Source of the DNA: a virus
DNA length: 23,010 bases
Virus record (IMG/VR): IMGVR_UViG_3300046557_000265
Span: 1-23,010 of that record
Reading direction: 5' to 3' (one strand)
Numbering within the stretch: position 1 is the first letter of the stretch; each line of letters begins with the position of its first letter. This document shows positions 3 to 19,808 of this stretch, piece after piece. The notes under the pieces were generated by a model. The model was not told where the DNA came from. It worked only from the letters and a program-made list of their open reading frames with translations, and did not search any database. The translations under genes were made by a program, and so were the position numbers.

Positions 3-1418
3 TTCAACCCAACTTACTTTAAAGCGATGATTCAAACAAAGTCGCTTTACCTCGGAATTCTCAAAGGCACGGAATACGCCGTCTGGGACCCACAGGCCAA
101 AGATTTCATAAAATCCAACCTCCTCGACGGGGAGACTGGTTTCAGTTTCTTTATCAGTCACTTCAAAGAATTGCAGCCGACTCTGTCCGAGAGCTACAAG
201 CGTAAACAAAAGGTTGAGCTGGTCCAACGATTCAAGCCTATTGCATTGGCTGCCAAGGTACTGGTTCCTCCTGCCGGTCTGCGGGACATCGAGTTCCAGC
301 CGGACGGTACTACTGTTGAACCAGAGATAACCGACTTCTATCGCAAACTTTTGTTCCGCACTCGTGTGGTGTCACTGGGCAGTAAGGAAGATGGTGATAA
401 CCCACTGTATGACACAGTGCGCTGGGGTCTCCAGAGTTCCTACAACGATATTGACCAATACATCTTTGATCTGATGGACGGTAAGTCGGGTCTGTTCCAG
501 CGGCGGGTTTCTACTCGTGGCGTGGTATCGGGTACCCGTAACGTTATTACCGCTCGTAAGGTCTCCAGAGAGCACTTGCACAAAGGGAATGGGGTCAACC
601 CCAACTCGGTGGACATGGGCCTCTATCAAGCGCTGCTGAACTTTCAGTACGTTTGCATTCACGCACTGCTCACCAAGTACCTGGGTACCATCTTTAGCCC
701 AGGATCCCAAAACGTCAAGTTAGTCAATACCAAGACACTGGAGTATGAATATGTTGAGGTCGCAGCAGCCGTTGTCGAAAAGTGGTCAACTGCCACAGGC
801 ATCTCCAAACTCTTCAACGGTTTCGGAAATGCTCGACTCCGCTCCAAACCCATCATCCTTTCTGGGCACTATCTGGCGCTGGTGTACGACGACGGTCATG
901 ATGTTTGTGTCCTGAGTGACATCAACGATCTGCCAGCAGGTAAGGATCGTAAACTGGTGACTCCAATCACCTACATGCAGCTTTACTACCTCTCTTGCCA
1001 CAAGACGATCGGTGATCAGGTCTCCCAGCAGACACGTTACCCGGTAATTGGCATTGGTTCTATCTTCCCTGCCAAGGTTAACCTCCTGAGCATTGAAGGG
1101 GCCAAGCCTCGGGTCATTCGTGATACTGAGTGGGAAGTGCTTGAAGAATGCATGCGCTATCCGCACAACATTGAAAAGCCAGACTACTTTGATGCCATGT
1201 CAGTAGACCCAAGTCGTGAAGCCGGTCTCGACTCCGACCACGATGGTGACATGCTCAATAGTAACAGTGTGTGCGCTGAAGACAGTAAGGCTCAGGTTAA
1301 CGATCTGTTTGGTAAGCGCGAGTATTACATCAGCGGTAGCAATCGGTTCCTTTACGACCCTGTTAACGAACCCATTTTGTTTATGCTCAAAGCCGCCACC
1401 AGCGGTATGGAGAAATAA
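3..1418 (+). CDS. Phage RNA polymerase beta'-like subunit, N-terminal fragment (5' end outside window)
   Basis: This is the catalytic N-terminal part of a split beta' subunit, which holds the active-site Mg ion. Residues here count from the ATG at 27. VLVPPAGLRD (about 79-88) matches the beta' 'LPVPPxxLRP' segment. GLFQRRVSTRGVVSGTRNVI (155-174) matches '[20 protein letters not shown]'. RYPVIGIGSIFP (337-348) sits where beta' has 'RAPTLHRLG'. SDHDGDM (403-409) is the NADFDGD metal loop with all three Asp (404, 406, 408) kept. It stops soon after that loop, as in phiKZ-type split polymerases, so the beta' C-terminal half must be encoded elsewhere. The frame is open back to base 3 with no stop and the ATG at 27 has no good ribosome-binding site, so I treat the gene as entering from upstream. 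Closest in kind to phiKZ gp180, from memory; whether it is the virion or non-virion enzyme is inferred. Confidence 0.85.
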   Translation, partial: FNPTYFKAMIQTKSLYLGILKGTEYAVWDPQAKDFIKSNLLDGETGFSFFISHFKELQPTLSESYKRKQKVELVQRFKPIALAAKVLVPPAGLRDIEFQPDGTTVEPEITDFYRKLLFRTRVVSLGSKEDGDNPLYDTVRWGLQSSYNDIDQYIFDLMDGKSGLFQRRVSTRGVVSGTRNVITARKVSREHLHKGNGVNPNSVDMGLYQALLNFQYVCIHALLTKYLGTIFSPGSQNVKLVNTKTLEYEYVEVAAAVVEKWSTATGISKLFNGFGNARLRSKPIILSGHYLALVYDDGHDVCVLSDINDLPAGKDRKLVTPITYMQLYYLSCHKTIGDQVSQQTRYPVIGIGSIFPAKVNLLSIEGAKPRVIRDTEWEVLEECMRYPHNIEKPDYFDAMSVDPSREAGLDSDHDGDMLNSNSVCAEDSKAQVNDLFGKREYYISGSNRFLYDPVNEPILFMLKAATSGMEK

Positions 1419-1422
1419 AGGT

Positions 1423-4400
1423 ATGAATATCCCATCGGCGAACACGCTGAGTCCCCTAGACGCTGTGACGGGGGATGAAGCGCTCTATCCTCAGTTCTAC
1501 CGCGCCTTTGTACAGCGTAAGCGTCAAGAGTTGATCGCCCCTGTCTTTATCGGGATTGGCGAGATCATCTTGCCACGTTCTTCGTTGGTTCACTTCTTCC
1601 CAAACAACCCACAAGAGATCGGTCCTTCTATTTCTGAAGCCTTTATCAGCAACTACCCTGATGAAGTGTTTATCGAGTTTCCGGCCAAGTACACCCCGGT
1701 GATTGGTAGTGGTCGTGCTGTACAGATTGAACCTCGTAAAGTTATCCTGGGTTATCGCGGTTCGCACTACAAGTACAACTGGACCAAGGATATCAACACG
1801 GTCTACAACAAGGACAAGGTTCTGATTGTTAAGAGCTACGGTCTTGCCGATATGCTCTGGCATCCACGGGCTTCTCTGTTCATCAACTTCGAGCGGTTCT
1901 ACAACCACTTCAACCTGTTGATGGACGGTGTTAACGAAGAAGCTGAACGTGGTAAACGCCGCAAGCAGTTCCACCGCATTGACCTGCCGCTGCACATGCC
2001 GTCATTTACCGAACTGATGGTCGACTACGATCATTACGTTGAAAGCTTCCGTGACGGCAAGCCGCTGGCCAGCAACAAGACTGTACGGACCACCAAGCAG
2101 GAAAGTTCCTACTGGTTGATGGACTGGATGGCTTTGCTGTTCGGTGATTACGAATACAGTCTGCTGAATAAGCTTTCTGATAAAGCGATCGAAGATTTCC
2201 ACCTGATCTTTGTGTTTAACAGTCGTGCACTGGTGATTCACCTGGGTACACTGAAAGGGTGGTTGGATGCAGAAATGGATCCGAAAGCAAAGCCCAAGGA
2301 TGGAGACTCGCCGAAGAGTGAGCGTGAAAAACACGGTAAACGTTTGAACGCGTCTAAACGTGTTTACCTGGCCTTGCTTAATCTTACCCGGGGTGGTGTC
2401 TCGGAAGAGGAAGTGGTAAAAGAGGAAAAGGAAGATGGAAGAGGAGAAGAAGCAGAGACGGCTGGGCGCCTGGATGCAGAGGCGTCGCGAGCTGAGAAAG
2501 GGAAAGGTAAAACATCCGGTGGATCCGGAGAAGGAACGCTTCCTCGCAAAAATGACAGTGGGCGAACTACTGGTCATCCTGATCCTCTCCGTGATGCTTT
2601 CGGTGGTAGTCAAGGAGCTGACGACGGAAGTGATGAAGGGACCGGACAAGAGGGAGACGGAACAAATCCTGAAAGCACTGAAGACTGGACATCACATGTA
2701 GATGATCGTCTGCTCGAACAGGATAAAGTGGTTGGCGAAGTCTCCATCAAGAAGGACCCGTTCACCTCGTTTGAAAGTGGGGTATCCGCAGCACTGGAAG
2801 AGAAGGCTCGTGAAGGCAGTCTGTCTGTTGCAGAACAGCAGTTCTTCATGCGCAAGGCTACTCAGGTTTATCACATTGAAATGGAAAACGGTCAGAGTCT
2901 GGCTGAATACATGGAGATCAAACCAGAGGAGCTGAAGTCACTTCTCAGCGACGCAAAGATCGAAGGTAACTTCCCCACGATTCTCGATCAATCGATGCTC
3001 CAGAGCCGTGCCAAGGTCTTGAAGCAGGGTTATGTGGACAAGTTCCTGTATAAGGACATCGCTCGCATGGCGGTGGGTATCCAGAACGCAGGTTTTGCGT
3101 TGAACGACTACAAGCATGAAGAGATTCATGGTGTAGAGGGTTCCTACGACGTCATGACAATGCAAGTCCATCACGTTGATGGGGAGCAGTCGACTCACCA
3201 GGTTCGTTTCCCTAAGGTGAATAAAGACGGCTCCTTCACTGTTGATGGGGTTAAGTCTCACCTGCAACTGCAACGCATGGAACTGCCGATCCGCAAGATC
3301 GATGCAAGCACTGTACTGCTGACCTCTCACTATGACCGCCAGTTGATGGTGACCCGTAGCAAGAAGGTGGTGGATGACTTGGGTGTGTGGCTGAAGAAAC
3401 AGATCCTGCTGCGTGCTATGGCTGACAAGGATATCACGTTAAGCCGTGGTAATGGTCGTAACCGTGACTATACCGGTCCGCGGATCTACACTATCCTGGC
3501 CAGTCGCTTCCAGTGGATCAACGTGGGTGGTTACCTGCTGGACTTCCGCATCGAGAAGTTGTTGGAAGAACATCCTGAGTTCAAGAAGTTTACCAAACCT
3601 GACATGTTCCTGGTAGGCGTCAAGAACAAGAAACCAATCACGATCGACAGCTACGGCAACCTCTACCTGGATGGTGTTGAGTTTAATACCTTTGAAGGGT
3701 TGATGGGGATCAACTTCAGCAAAGCACCTAATGAACATGCCGTGATCAACATCAGCGGCTTTCAGTTTCCACTGGGTGTAGTCCTGTGTTACTACTTCGG
3801 GATTGATGACCTGCTGAAGATCATTAAGGCAACGACCCGCAGTGTGCCGATGGGGACGCGTCCTAAGTTGGCTGACGACGAGTACGCCATCCAGTTCAAC
3901 GACGAGTATCTGATCTTCAACCGTCGTGAGAAACTGACCACCCTGATCTTTGGTGGTATGCCTAAGTTGAACAACATCAGTAACTTCAGCCGGAGTGACC
4001 TGAACAACAAAGGTATCTGGGGTCCGTTGATGGGGGATCCAAAGGTTCGTCCTTCGCAGTTCCTGGAGATGAACCTGCTGTACAAAATGTTTATTGACGC
4101 GATCACCAAAGATCAGTTGAAACGCATGGGTTACAGTGAGTCCTTTCATTACCTGCTGATTGACGCAGCCAAGCTGCTGGAAACCGACTACACCCCTCAC
4201 GAGGTGGAATTGGAAGAGCAGCGTTTCGTGGGCTACGAGCGTTTCGCTGGTCATTACTACAAGATCATGGTAGGGGCTGCACGTCAGTACTTCAACAAAG
4301 GTAAAGGTCGTAAGCAGAAGCTTGAGATCAACCCTGAAGCAGTGATCATGAGTATCCTCAAGGATACCTCGGTTAACCGAGTGGAGGAAGTGAACCCTAT

Positions 4401-5793
4401 CCACCAGTTGAAGGATCAGGAAGAGCTGACCTTTGGTGGTACTGGTGGACGTAGCGAGATCACGGTGGTTAAGCGGGCTCGCGTTCAGCTTAAGAGCTAT
4501 CGTGGCAAGATCTCCGAGGCTAACAAGGACAGTGGTAAAGTGGGCTTCGTAACCTACACCACCTCTGACCCTCAGATCCTCGACTACCGCGGCAACATTG
4601 ACACCAAGAGTAAGCCGTCTGCTACCTCGTTGTATTCTGTAACAGGCAACCTGGCATTTGGTATGAACAAGGACGATACCAAACGGGGGATGTTTACCTC
4701 GACTCAGGCGTCTCAAGCGGTCAGTGCTGAAAACTACACCATGCCGATCACTCGTACAGGTTATGACAACGTCATTGCTCAACGGACTTCCGAACTCTAC
4801 AGCAAGGTGGCTAAAGAGGACGGCAAGGTAACGGCAGTCGAAGAGGACTATCTGGAAATCACCTATAACGACGGTACTGCTGAAAAGTATCCGTTGGGGT
4901 TGGTTATTGGTGAAGCCAGCGGCGAATACCATCGTCACACCCGCGTTACCGATATGAAAGTCGGCGACAAGTTTACCAAGGGTGAAGTACTGGGCTGGGA
5001 CAAGCAGTGGTTTGCTCGTGACCCGTTCTGCCCAGGACAAGTGGTTTGGCTTAACGGCAAACAAGTTCGCATTGCGTTGGTAGAAGACCAGGATACCTAC
5101 GAGGACTCCATCGCGGTTTCGAAAGAGATCATGGAGGAATCGATTACCCCGTTTCTGACGAAGAATACCTTCGCTGTAGACGTGGATAAGGTTGTGACCT
5201 TTAAGGTTAAACAAGGTGACCAAATCGACTACGACGCGATTTTATGCGAAATTGAAGAGAGCCACCTGGCAGGGGCTGGAGACACGAATACTCAAGTCGG
5301 GGATATCAACCGTCTGGGTATCAAACAGATTCGCTCCAAGTACCACGGCCAGGTCGTTAAGATCGACGTGATGTACAACTCACCTGTGGAAAAGATGTCG
5401 GACAGTGTGCGTAAACTGGTCGCTACCTCGGACAAAGAACGCAAGCGTATGTCTTCGATTGATGGCAGTGTTGCAACAGGTAGCGTGAGTAACAACCTCA
5501 ACGTGAGTAAGCCTGTATTGTCACCAGGGAAGATATTGTTTACCGTCTACGTCGAATCCATGGATGGTTCTACCACCTCGGACAAATACGTAATTGCCAA
5601 CCAGATGAAAGGTACCGTCAACGGTGTGATGAAGAAGCCGTTGATGACTCAAGACGGTCGTGTGGTAGACGTCAAGTGTAGCTTTAAAGGCGGCTTTAAC
5701 CGCATGGTACTGAGCTTTAGGGATCGACTGGGCACAAGTGAATTGTCGGTTGGGGTTACCAAACAGGCTATTGCCATTTACAGGGGTAAGTAA
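1423..5793 (+). CDS. Phage RNA polymerase beta-like subunit with a long N-terminal extension
   Basis: 1456 aa from the ATG at 1423, four bases after the beta' fragment stops; longer in-frame upstream starts would overlap that gene. Residues 1-326 match no RNAP region I know. Residues 327-426 are a Glu/Gly/Ser/Asp-rich low-complexity linker. Beta-like sequence follows: VRFPKVNKDGSFTVDG near 594, with the 'LPIRKI' and 'VLLTSHY' strands after it; FGGTGGRSEI near 1003-1012, equivalent to 'LGPGGLTR'; EDQDTYEDSIAVS near 1221-1233, equivalent to 'EGYNFEDSILIS'. At 1393-1403 NQMKGTVNGVM stands where bacterial beta has 'MAGRHGNKGVI', so that conserved basic motif is lost. It ends before the beta C-terminal clamp region, implying a separate C-terminal polypeptide, as with phiKZ gp178 plus gp149. 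Adjacency to late and virion genes favours the virion polymerase. The beta assignment is firm, the virion assignment less so. Confidence 0.85.
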   Translation: MNIPSANTLSPLDAVTGDEALYPQFYRAFVQRKRQELIAPVFIGIGEIILPRSSLVHFFPNNPQEIGPSISEAFISNYPDEVFIEFPAKYTPVIGSGRAVQIEPRKVILGYRGSHYKYNWTKDINTVYNKDKVLIVKSYGLADMLWHPRASLFINFERFYNHFNLLMDGVNEEAERGKRRKQFHRIDLPLHMPSFTELMVDYDHYVESFRDGKPLASNKTVRTTKQESSYWLMDWMALLFGDYEYSLLNKLSDKAIEDFHLIFVFNSRALVIHLGTLKGWLDAEMDPKAKPKDGDSPKSEREKHGKRLNASKRVYLALLNLTRGGVSEEEVVKEEKEDGRGEEAETAGRLDAEASRAEKGKGKTSGGSGEGTLPRKNDSGRTTGHPDPLRDAFGGSQGADDGSDEGTGQEGDGTNPESTEDWTSHVDDRLLEQDKVVGEVSIKKDPFTSFESGVSAALEEKAREGSLSVAEQQFFMRKATQVYHIEMENGQSLAEYMEIKPEELKSLLSDAKIEGNFPTILDQSMLQSRAKVLKQGYVDKFLYKDIARMAVGIQNAGFALNDYKHEEIHGVEGSYDVMTMQVHHVDGEQSTHQVRFPKVNKDGSFTVDGVKSHLQLQRMELPIRKIDASTVLLTSHYDRQLMVTRSKKVVDDLGVWLKKQILLRAMADKDITLSRGNGRNRDYTGPRIYTILASRFQWINVGGYLLDFRIEKLLEEHPEFKKFTKPDMFLVGVKNKKPITIDSYGNLYLDGVEFNTFEGLMGINFSKAPNEHAVINISGFQFPLGVVLCYYFGIDDLLKIIKATTRSVPMGTRPKLADDEYAIQFNDEYLIFNRREKLTTLIFGGMPKLNNISNFSRSDLNNKGIWGPLMGDPKVRPSQFLEMNLLYKMFIDAITKDQLKRMGYSESFHYLLIDAAKLLETDYTPHEVELEEQRFVGYERFAGHYYKIMVGAARQYFNKGKGRKQKLEINPEAVIMSILKDTSVNRVEEVNPIHQLKDQEELTFGGTGGRSEITVVKRARVQLKSYRGKISEANKDSGKVGFVTYTTSDPQILDYRGNIDTKSKPSATSLYSVTGNLAFGMNKDDTKRGMFTSTQASQAVSAENYTMPITRTGYDNVIAQRTSELYSKVAKEDGKVTAVEEDYLEITYNDGTAEKYPLGLVIGEASGEYHRHTRVTDMKVGDKFTKGEVLGWDKQWFARDPFCPGQVVWLNGKQVRIALVEDQDTYEDSIAVSKEIMEESITPFLTKNTFAVDVDKVVTFKVKQGDQIDYDAILCEIEESHLAGAGDTNTQVGDINRLGIKQIRSKYHGQVVKIDVMYNSPVEKMSDSVRKLVATSDKERKRMSSIDGSVATGSVSNNLNVSKPVLSPGKILFTVYVESMDGSTTSDKYVIANQMKGTVNGVMKKPLMTQDGRVVDVKCSFKGGFNRMVLSFRDRLGTSELSVGVTKQAIAIYRGK
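2435..2701 (+). CDS. Small basic single-span membrane protein, nested out of frame in the RNAP beta gene
   Basis: This 88-codon frame lies wholly inside the beta gene, one base ahead of it in phase, exactly under the low-complexity linker. An in-frame TAA sits at 2417 and the ATG at 2435 follows a purine-rich AGAGGAAAAGGAAG, so a start with a ribosome-binding site is present. Residues 1-39 are strongly basic (RRRELRKGK and similar), about 45-59 are a hydrophobic segment (LLVILILSVMLSVVV), and 60-88 form a charged tail. Codons such as ctg, atc, gtc, ggc and cgc look more like the neighbouring genes than the gga/aga/cga-rich codons of the beta frame across the same bases. Predicted: one membrane span, basic N-terminus in the cytoplasm. 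A holin or other membrane-lesion role is only a guess from size and the endolysin gene 3 kb downstream. It could also be a chance frame in a purine-rich linker. Confidence 0.5.
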   Translation: MEEEKKQRRLGAWMQRRRELRKGKVKHPVDPEKERFLAKMTVGELLVILILSVMLSVVVKELTTEVMKGPDKRETEQILKALKTGHHM

Positions 5794-5795
5794 AG

Positions 5796-6722
5796 ATGAT
5801 CTTCCAGACAGTCAACGGAGTTAAAGACATTCAGGTGGTCCTCGGTGAGGCCCAGGTCTACTCCGGCGCTATTGACGGTGTCTGGGGTAATGGAAGTCGG
5901 GATGGGGTCCTGAAGATGTTTCAGGACTACCACCTGTTCCTCAACGGGGGGCGCTCTGTGCCCCTGCCTGTTGCCTCAGGAGCTGGCTACGATGTTGCAG
6001 TACAAGCGGTTAAAGATATCCAGAGCAACTTGAAACTGGTTGGTCTTTATACCCGCGCAGTGGATGGCATTCCAGGTAACGGTAGCCTGGCTGGTTTGCG
6101 TCAGGTGTTGTTCAGCTATTCCACGCGCAACAAGCTTCCGTTCTACGACCTCGGTTGGAGTACGCGAGTTCCAGCGGCTTTCAGCATGAAGGTTCGCGAC
6201 TGGTGCAGCAAACAAAACATGTTCTCGGGTGCAGCCTCTGCATTGATGGCCTGCATGTGCTTTGAATCAGGTGGTACCTTCCGTCCTGATAAACAGAACA
6301 ACGGCGGTAGCAACTACTTCGGTCTGATTCAGTTCGGTACTGCGGCAGTGAGCGACCTGTCCAAGACGTACGGGTTGAATATCACCCTGGACGACGTCAA
6401 GGCCATGAGCCAACTGGATCAACTTGATCTGGTGTTCAAGTATTTCGAGATGTGGCAGAAGCGTGGCAAGGTCTACAAACGTCTCGAGGATTTCTATCTG
6501 ACGATCTTCTATCCTGCTGCGGTAGGTAAAGGTCCAGATGAAGTTCTGTTCCGCAAAGGTTCTCCTGTCCCTATCGAAGCCAAGTCTTATCTGCAAAACA
6601 GCGGGTTCGACATTGACAAGGATGGTGACATCACCGTAGGCGAGATCTGTGCTCGTCTCTACGACATGTATTACCAAGGGATGTCGGTCAAGAACCGCGT
6701 CTCCAGCCCTTCACCACTCTAA
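5796..6722 (+). CDS. Endolysin: two peptidoglycan-binding repeats plus lytic transglycosylase domain
   Basis: 308 aa, starting two bases after the beta stop with AGGGG upstream. Cleaves the glycan strands of peptidoglycan at lysis or entry. Residues 1-56 and about 64-112 are two peptidoglycan-binding repeats; compare VYSGAIDGVWGNGSRDGV with LYTRAVDGIPGNGSLAGL. Residues about 120-260 form an SLT/lysozyme-like domain. The likely catalytic Glu is E157 in CMCFESGGTF, followed by the NYFGLIQFG signature at 173-181. At 272-283 DIDKDGDITVGE is a textbook EF-hand calcium loop (D272, D274, D276, D278, E283). No signal peptide is seen, so it needs a holin or virion delivery. The architecture recalls phage EL endolysin EL188 more than the single-repeat phiKZ gp144. 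Its place beside virion genes leaves a virion-associated lysin possible. Confidence 0.9.
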   Translation: MIFQTVNGVKDIQVVLGEAQVYSGAIDGVWGNGSRDGVLKMFQDYHLFLNGGRSVPLPVASGAGYDVAVQAVKDIQSNLKLVGLYTRAVDGIPGNGSLAGLRQVLFSYSTRNKLPFYDLGWSTRVPAAFSMKVRDWCSKQNMFSGAASALMACMCFESGGTFRPDKQNNGGSNYFGLIQFGTAAVSDLSKTYGLNITLDDVKAMSQLDQLDLVFKYFEMWQKRGKVYKRLEDFYLTIFYPAAVGKGPDEVLFRKGSPVPIEAKSYLQNSGFDIDKDGDITVGEICARLYDMYYQGMSVKNRVSSPSPL

Positions 6723-6743: not shown

Positions 6744-6920
6744 ATGACTGATAAAGAGCAACTCATCACCAACATCGTCACGGTCGCCAATACCGTGGAG
6801 GTCGTTAAGCGGACCCTCGCCAAAGTAGGGTTGCAATTCCTTGCCCCGCTGGGTGAATCCGTAATGGATGAAAAGATCAGCAAGGCTATCGTTGCCTGTG
6901 TACAAGGAGCGTCGAAATGA
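6744..6920 (+). CDS. Small conserved-looking phage protein (58 aa), function unknown
   Basis: This short gene fills the space between the endolysin and the 510-aa gene. The ATG at 6744 has AGGAG at 6729-6733, ten bases ahead. The product starts MTDKEQLITNIVTVANTVEV and ends IVACVQGASK. Its TGA overlaps the next gene's ATG as ATGA, a typical translationally coupled junction in this genome. The sequence is predicted alpha-helical, with no membrane span, signal peptide or recognisable motif. Coupling to the following gene suggests a structural or assembly partner, by inference only. Confidence 0.75.
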   Translation: MTDKEQLITNIVTVANTVEVVKRTLAKVGLQFLAPLGESVMDEKISKAIVACVQGASK

Positions 6921-19379: not shown

Positions 19380-19808
19380 ATGTCAGAGTTCATCATGGAT
19401 TTGATAACGGTCATGATCTGGCTAACCGTTATTGTCTTACTGGTGATCAGGCGAAAGGAACGACGTGGGTTACTCTACGGACTGACCTTAACCGATGACG
19501 GTATGACGTTCTGGTATAGATTAGGAATCTATGCTGGGACTGTAACTATGGTTCGTGATGTAATGGTAAAGGAGCCCCAGCTTTCCGGAAATGTTGTAGG
19601 CTGGCTGTGTCGCTTCCCTGTTCGTTATACGAACAAGGAGATGTGTAACTACATCAGGATGTACGCTCCCTTCTGTTCTGATAAGACTCCTCATTCACAA
19701 GACCTGTGGATATTTAACGAGGTGGTCAATCGAAACAACAACGCTTTGATCAGTGTTTATGGTCAAGTATTTGTGTTTGACAATCGCGATGGTAAAGGCT
19801 TTTATTGA
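19380..19808 (+). CDS. Small N-terminally membrane-anchored protein, unknown function (142 aa)
   Basis: The ATG at 19380, five bases after the previous stop, has GAAGG upstream. Residues about 6-22 form one hydrophobic span (MDLITVMIWLTVIVLLV), followed at once by RRKERRG, so the C-terminal domain should be cytoplasmic by the positive-inside rule. That domain (about 30-142) has aromatic and Cys residues (GWLCRFPVRY, MCNYIRMYAPFC) but no recognised motif. No lipobox or signal cleavage site is evident. It ends just before a bidirectional hairpin. Co-transcription with the 243-aa gene suggests linked roles, by inference. Confidence 0.8.
   Translation: MSEFIMDLITVMIWLTVIVLLVIRRKERRGLLYGLTLTDDGMTFWYRLGIYAGTVTMVRDVMVKEPQLSGNVVGWLCRFPVRYTNKEMCNYIRMYAPFCSDKTPHSQDLWIFNEVVNRNNNALISVYGQVFVFDNRDGKGFY

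Follow-up and report, generated by a model that had tools for sequence, protein, structure and literature searches.

The best-known overprinted genes come from small genomes, and phage lysis genes are among those described: E of phiX174 lies within gene D, and Rz1 of lambda lies within Rz, each in a shifted frame. A separate set of lysis proteins, the class III (T4 T-type) and other one-span holins, have one membrane span and are encoded near an endolysin gene. Lysis genes can also sit inside a polymerase gene. According to PMC7693330, 33 lysis (sgl) genes of ssRNA phages have activity in E. coli; 21 of them are located within the replicase gene and read in its +1 frame, and the rep-embedded sgl genes are mostly found in less conserved regions of the replicase.

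The stretch of DNA analysed here (the window; 23,010 nucleotides of IMG/VR virus record IMGVR_UViG_3300046557_000265) is a piece of a phiKZ-related jumbo phage genome, and it contains a short reading frame nested in the linker of a virion RNA polymerase beta subunit gene (Table 1). The beta frame has no stop anywhere in 1423-5793, and its product is homologous to gp178-type beta over its full length, the phrog_3148 match spanning residues 20-1456. The nearest named relatives of the protein are those of Pseudomonas phage EL (55% identity) and Erwinia phage RisingSun (54%), and a note in the 201phi2-1 record equates the beta orthologue of that phage with phiKZ gp178 and EL gp186/187. The N-terminal extension that the initial annotation attributed to beta dissolves on comparison into mere upstream open frame; full-length matches begin at residues 1-22 counted from the start at 1423, with the exception of L010, the contig of which begins later. 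The records of EL (L028 9187-9643) and FishSpeaker (L031 9178-9581) give beta as two annotated pieces separated by a gap near residue 1065, and an HNH endonuclease gene lies 5' of beta (compare also L041). According to the 201phi2-1 record, a mobile element interrupts the beta gene of that phage. The beta gene of the window is uninterrupted.

Table 1. Features of the beta locus and its flanks (positions in the window)
Feature	Position	Strand	Basis
RNA polymerase subunit gene (EL gp184 / phiKZ gp180 type), 5' of beta, truncated by the window edge	3..1418	+	phrog_2986
Virion RNA polymerase beta subunit gene (phiKZ gp178 / EL gp186-187 type), 1456 aa	1423..5793	+	homology, phrog_3148
Linker of beta	about residues 332-426 of the 1423..5793 product
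Shine-Dalgarno AGAGGA of the inner gene, within beta codons Lys-Glu-Glu	2421..2426	+	duplex energy -6.0
Inner gene, overprinted on beta in the +1 frame; 88 aa, from ATG to TAG	2435..2701	+	ORF, comparison, selection, tree, profile
Predicted membrane span of the inner protein (residues 41-59)	2555..2611	+	Kyte-Doolittle 2.57; AlphaFold helix 42-67
TAG stop of the inner gene, formed by the beta valine codon GTA and the next G	2699..2701	+	codon alignment
Endolysin-like gene adjoining beta, N-terminal peptidoglycan-binding domain	5796..6722	+	PF01471; PF18013 below its cut-off

The initial annotation had proposed that 2417-2701 is open in two frames. This holds for the beta frame; the inner frame opens at 2420, since 2417 is the in-frame TAA that precedes it. 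Translated from its ATG at 2435, the frame does encode 88 aa as described: the N-terminus is basic, a single hydrophobic span covers residues 41-59, and the tail is charged. The GAGG core of its Shine-Dalgarno sequence ends 9 nt 5' of the ATG, and the start region is weakly structured (-1.5 kcal/mol). In good agreement with the earlier impression that the inner codons are more gene-like than those of the beta linker, the codon score of the inner frame exceeds 30.6% of 121 real-frame gene windows, with only 2.5% of +1-frame windows scoring higher, whereas the score of the beta linker exceeds only 1.7% of real-frame windows. By length and hydrophobicity in the window alone, however, the inner ORF is not beyond chance: synonymous-codon shuffles of the window yielded an ORF of at least 80 aa in 494 of 2000 cases and one that also had a membrane span in 180 of 2000, and across 26 genomes shuffles with both properties numbered from 0 to 202 per 2000. 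These frequencies would suit an explanation in which no protein is made and the open frame is a by-product of the E/G/K/D-rich composition of the linker or an RNA element. It is the comparison with relatives that takes the inner ORF beyond chance.

All 20 IMG/VR loci that cover the linker keep the inner frame open, and in each an ATG is found at about the same point and a hydrophobic segment is encoded; several of these loci are near-duplicates, and together they encode 16 distinct inner proteins, that of the window included. The remaining loci of the 26 with beta (L020-L023, L026, L027) cover the linker incompletely and were not counted. Further contigs with the inner gene are L054-L057, L059 and L064. 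Among phage records, 13 of the 23 opened carry the gene, with an ATG and usually a Shine-Dalgarno sequence. Twelve of these belong to a first set of 16 phages (EL, RisingSun, Miami, FishSpeaker, Vibrio 2 TSL, pTD1, PDCC-1, N1M2, AH04, pEt-SU, pAEv1810 and D6; FishSpeaker, RisingSun and D6 with one representative each), and OBP is a further carrier from outside that set. The ten non-carriers are phiKZ, 201phi2-1, PA1C, SPN3US, EarlPhillipIV, Moabite, BONAISHI, pEa_SNUABM_54, Special G and Proteus 10. The Shine-Dalgarno core is kept in most relatives while the surrounding beta residues vary, the start signal being weak in N1M2, pEt-SU and pAEv1810. The span is weak in L018 (1.44) and pTD1 (1.58), both of which are left out by an ORF scan of beta with a hydrophobicity cut-off of >1.6, and D6 is the most divergent member. 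A second frame is thus open in divergent homologues with its own start and stop, as is expected of an overprinted gene. Hydrophobic stretches are also encoded by antisense and by other sense ORFs in beta, which we set aside; none of these recurs in place across the set in the way that the inner frame does.

A profile of 25 inner members, searched against 22 whole phage genomes, gave one strong match, at beta, in 12 of them (E 7.6e-10 or better), and the held-out genomes of AH04 (5.4e-18) and OBP (5.3e-17) were matched as well. The sole match among the ten non-carriers, in BONAISHI (E 0.013), lies far from beta, and a second match in N1M2 (E 0.1) has five internal stops; we took both as chance. 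PDCC-1 is absent from this search and from the beta tree described below, D6 was left out of alignment A5 and AH04 out of alignment A1. Queried by tblastn with the 88 aa of the window, the phage records gave no match even at E 10, and the matches there needed queries from the EL, Vibrio, OBP, Miami and Aeromonas members. Family members matched 52 phage records; in 51 of these just one annotated feature underlies the match, and one record is unannotated. None of the 13 carrier records opened has an annotated gene inside the linker. Gene callers can miss conserved genes of the overprinted type, and the inner gene is an example.

Differences among six close relatives change character where the two frames overlap. 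At beta codon positions 1/2/3 they amount to 0.094/0.051/0.306 upstream and 0.089/0.052/0.299 downstream, and to 0.249/0.146/0.090 in the overlap, with third-position differences falling to 0.046 in the overlap core. The initial annotation had named unreduced synonymous change in the overlap as evidence that would refute the inner gene; beta third-position differences in fact drop from 0.30 to 0.09, and this refutation fails. Because position 1 of beta is position 3 of the inner frame, the bases of the overlap behave as inner codons. By our own single-site two-frame count after the OLGenie idea (bootstrap over codons; pairs non-independent, values uncorrected for multiple hits or tree), dN/dS of the inner frame in the overlap is 0.22 both in the six close relatives (0.13-0.31) and in a second, separate group of four (0.14-0.34), as compared with 0.92 (0.48-1.99) and 0.86 (0.47-1.65), respectively, for beta over the same bases. 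In the flanks, the same count gives 0.08-0.12 for beta and 0.64-0.84 for the pseudo-inner frame. Purifying selection in the second frame therefore exceeds that in the container frame, a pattern that marks overprinted genes. A low inner dN/dS combined with a near-neutral beta argues that the shared bases are selected mainly for the hidden protein, and the beta linker would then be kept mostly for something other than beta.

The inner profiles of two deep subclades align with each other (hhalign 96.8%, E 3e-10). The beta-frame linkers of the same two subclades align less well (88%, E 3e-6), an alignment which nevertheless indicates that the linker is not wholly free. A short beta-frame motif of the type L-L-D-[VIL]-F, at 2560-2620 of the window, is common to the deep subclades, with S-L-A-D-L-Y-A-S in the N1M2 group; it faces the membrane span of the inner protein, and may reflect either a signal in beta itself or a side effect of the inner codons. 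Length changes in the overlap preserve both frames. Furthermore, the inner stop falls at the same codon of a conserved beta stretch (GTA for Val or ATA for Ile) in 26 of 31 motif-fitting rows, a count that includes near-duplicates and omits PDCC-1 and D6, which do not match the motif pattern. GTA accounts for 10-32% of valine codons in these beta genes (21 of 107 in the beta of the window). The stop lies elsewhere in L015, RisingSun, Miami, N1M2 and AH04. Given the agreement of inner dN/dS in two separate groups, with beta so much higher over the same bases, the survival of both frames through length changes, the recurrent stop codon and the held-out profile matches, we regard a by-product of composition or an RNA element without a protein as scarcely credible. 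Judged by these sequence comparisons, the inner frame is almost certainly a real, conserved and unannotated gene under selection, nested in beta.

When did this gene arise? We calculated an unrooted beta tree from residues 470-1060, with the overlap omitted, in which carriers (21 rows) and non-carriers (10 rows, three of them long-branched) separate at one branch with support of 100/100. Several deep lineages are found among the non-carriers, which makes one gain the most economical reading. The gene would then have a single origin, at the base of that branch of the phiKZ-related jumbo phages which holds EL, RisingSun, Miami, OBP, N1M2, Vibrio (Gorgonvirinae) and Aeromonas phages. The initial annotation had named relatives that keep the linker and carry stops in the inner frame as evidence that would count against the gene. 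Taken literally, the ten outgroups are such relatives, and inside the carrier branch there are none; as all ten lie beyond one branch, their stops date the inner gene and do not refute it.

As to how it arose, the suggestion had been that a free small gene between two polymerase pieces was read through when these pieces fused. Polymerase genes in this phage group are indeed often split, those for EL and FishSpeaker beta among them, but the EL and FishSpeaker breaks lie away from the linker. In all ten outgroups, moreover, the frame that carries the N-terminal part of beta continues through the region without an inner gene, in eight of the ten as a single CDS, with the beta of 201phi2-1 and BONAISHI in two pieces; the non-carriers retain a beta stretch in the linker region that is often acidic. 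No stand-alone copy of the inner gene was found in the 22 whole phage genomes with the 25-member profile, in viral contigs with two closer profiles or in genome contigs with one of these two, the closer sets having been used because the 25-row alignment is too diverse for a scan of the collections. An origin by fusion finds no support in either the outgroups or these searches, and we hold it to be very improbable. With beta continuing through the region in outgroups that lack the inner gene, overprinting is what fits: the inner gene probably arose within an already existing beta linker. The result would be an old, branch-wide overprinted gene in dsDNA phages of 203-285 kb.

The inner proteins range from 75 to 108 aa, the predicted span starting at residues 24-45 and leaving 25-64 aa after it (29 in the window). 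In each of 25 members the N-terminal part carries a net positive charge. Lysine and arginine residues directly beside the span are more numerous on the N side in 12 of 25, and these counts do not settle the topology. AlphaFold, run on 15 window and IMG/VR members, places helices at residues 3-22, 31-39, 42-67 and 70-83, with high confidence for the membrane helix alone (pLDDT about 90 at residues 41-60; model mean 69; pTM 0.32). The product is predicted to cross the membrane once; its N-terminal part is basic and its C-terminal helix charged. Searches of inner members against Pfam, PHROG and PDB gave no convincing family or fold match: single-member PHROG and Pfam matches at E 0.01-1 scatter over unrelated families, and Foldseek of the model against BFVD gave no match. 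The PDB profile matches, to photosystem II PsbL at E 0.7 or more, were dismissed. The lack of a holin-family match in Pfam and PHROGs is weak evidence, holins being very diverse.

In the window, the gene that adjoins beta on its 3' side encodes a protein that shares 48% identity with EL gp188 along its whole length. All 14 carriers checked have an endolysin-like gene in this position, on the same strand as the inner gene. EL gp188 is matched over its full length by the proteins of the window and of ten phages (36-48% identity), whereas those of AH04 and OBP have its binding domain in common and a different catalytic part; Pfam finds PG_binding_1 or SLT in each carrier slot protein, in some below cut-off. 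What is kept among the carriers is a lysin slot, not one particular enzyme. EL188, which we equate with gp188 by name, and OBPgp279 (OBP_279, annotated as endolysin) are proven muralytic, peptidoglycan-degrading endolysins according to PMC3352856. The carrier proteins have no strongly hydrophobic N-terminus (the highest value is 1.48, in three Vibrio/Photobacterium phages), and a release factor would therefore be needed.

Eight non-carriers (phiKZ, 201phi2-1, PA1C, pEa_SNUABM_54, SPN3US, Moabite, BONAISHI and EarlPhillipIV) have a short gene after beta instead, and of the five such genes scanned none is lysin-like. The slot protein of Special G matches the catalytic part of EL gp188 (39%), and Proteus phage 10 has an M15 peptidase (PF13539) there; as both lack the inner gene, a lysin in the slot does not require it. 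Catalytic types in the slot differ: the window gene at 5796-6722 is of the EL type, L073 29038-30024 and L036 5842-6828 (OBP, AH04) are of another and L043 6116-6511 is M15 (Proteus phage 10), a variety that hints at module swapping in place. After the endolysin gene, at 6744-6920 of the window, lies a 58-aa gene (PHROG 17945, unknown); short genes in a similar place are EL gp189 and, directly after beta in endolysin-less phages, phiKZ 177.1 and those of PA1C and SPN3US.

In the mechanism that we propose, a ribosome would start at the inner ATG behind the internal Shine-Dalgarno sequence on beta mRNA, read the +1 frame across a stretch in which beta puts up with almost any sequence, and terminate at the point where beta becomes conserved again. 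The inner protein would be made late, along with the virion polymerase and with the endolysin, whose gene comes directly after beta, and would act in the inner membrane in a holin-like manner, letting the endolysin reach the cell wall. Like a holin, the product is small and has at least one transmembrane segment (weak in L018 and pTD1), and it is encoded beside an endolysin, although about 3 kb separate the inner stop from the endolysin gene, which is thus no strict neighbour. Its single span speaks against a holin, as many holins have two or three. It is from gene context that we infer the role, and the holin-like product of the initial annotation, while still something that we infer, gains strength from the adjoining endolysin gene. 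We give a holin-like lysis protein slightly less than an even chance. The explanation as a whole, in which a selected nested gene of single origin has a late holin-like lysis role, stands in our judgement evenly balanced.

Two other kinds of role have to be weighed. Nesting in the gene of a virion-packaged polymerase subunit, and the position of the head genes after the endolysin, would agree with a function early in infection, the inner protein being packaged with the virion polymerase or made alongside it and serving as an inner-membrane anchor, either for the polymerase after its ejection or for the early infection vesicle. Such a function is distinctly unlikely: the same polymerase gene is present in phiKZ, 201phi2-1 and PA1C, which lack the inner gene, and the endolysin neighbour is left unexplained. 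A small, basic, single-pass protein near an endolysin gene could also be an antiholin or lysis timer, an inner-membrane spanin partner or a superinfection exclusion protein. The N-terminal transmembrane segment and long periplasmic part of an i-spanin (Rz type) are not what the inner protein has, its 25-64 aa after the span being short for a spanin, and the very weak SieB-like PHROG match of the RisingSun member (E 0.16) is at chance level. These roles taken together are rather unlikely.

For the holin-like role, the state of knowledge about EL-like phages is also relevant. A scan of EL for other small membrane proteins, made with crude longest-first gene calls that leave out nested genes, gave 18 candidates and zero holin-family matches. 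Across literature titles and abstract openings, mostly open-access, the inner gene is undescribed and no holin is named for EL-like phages. We tentatively suggest that the inner gene may be the missing holin of EL-like jumbo phages: a lysis gene overprinted in a multisubunit RNA polymerase gene, which would have turned a linker near-neutral and would tie synthesis of the lysis protein to that of the packaged polymerase. In any case, it is a concrete and easily tested lysis-gene candidate beside the well-studied endolysins EL188 and OBPgp279. Elsewhere in the window, the 142-aa protein encoded at 19380-19808 carries a membrane span at its N-terminus and matches no PHROG; by eye, the protein at 1894-2295 of the EL record is similar to it.

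Set beside known systems, the container beta is of the same kind as phiKZ gp178, and phiKZ, 201phi2-1 and PA1C are without the inner gene there. With class III and other one-span holins the inner protein has in common its one span and a nearby endolysin gene, late expression being assumed; unlike them, it has no holin-family match in Pfam or PHROGs. T4 T also has a larger periplasmic domain. With phiX174 E/D and lambda Rz1/Rz it has overprinting in common, whereas genes, families and sizes differ. From the sgl genes of ssRNA phages it differs in that it lies in a dsDNA jumbo phage, in the gene of a multisubunit RNA polymerase with a separate endolysin gene nearby, and in that its family is old and conserved and its lysis role is a proposed one. 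The likeness to sgl is nonetheless detailed: sgl genes arise de novo, as the inner gene probably did, and in both cases a small one-span protein is encoded in the +1 frame, with its Shine-Dalgarno sequence and start inside a polymerase gene, in a poorly conserved stretch of the container.
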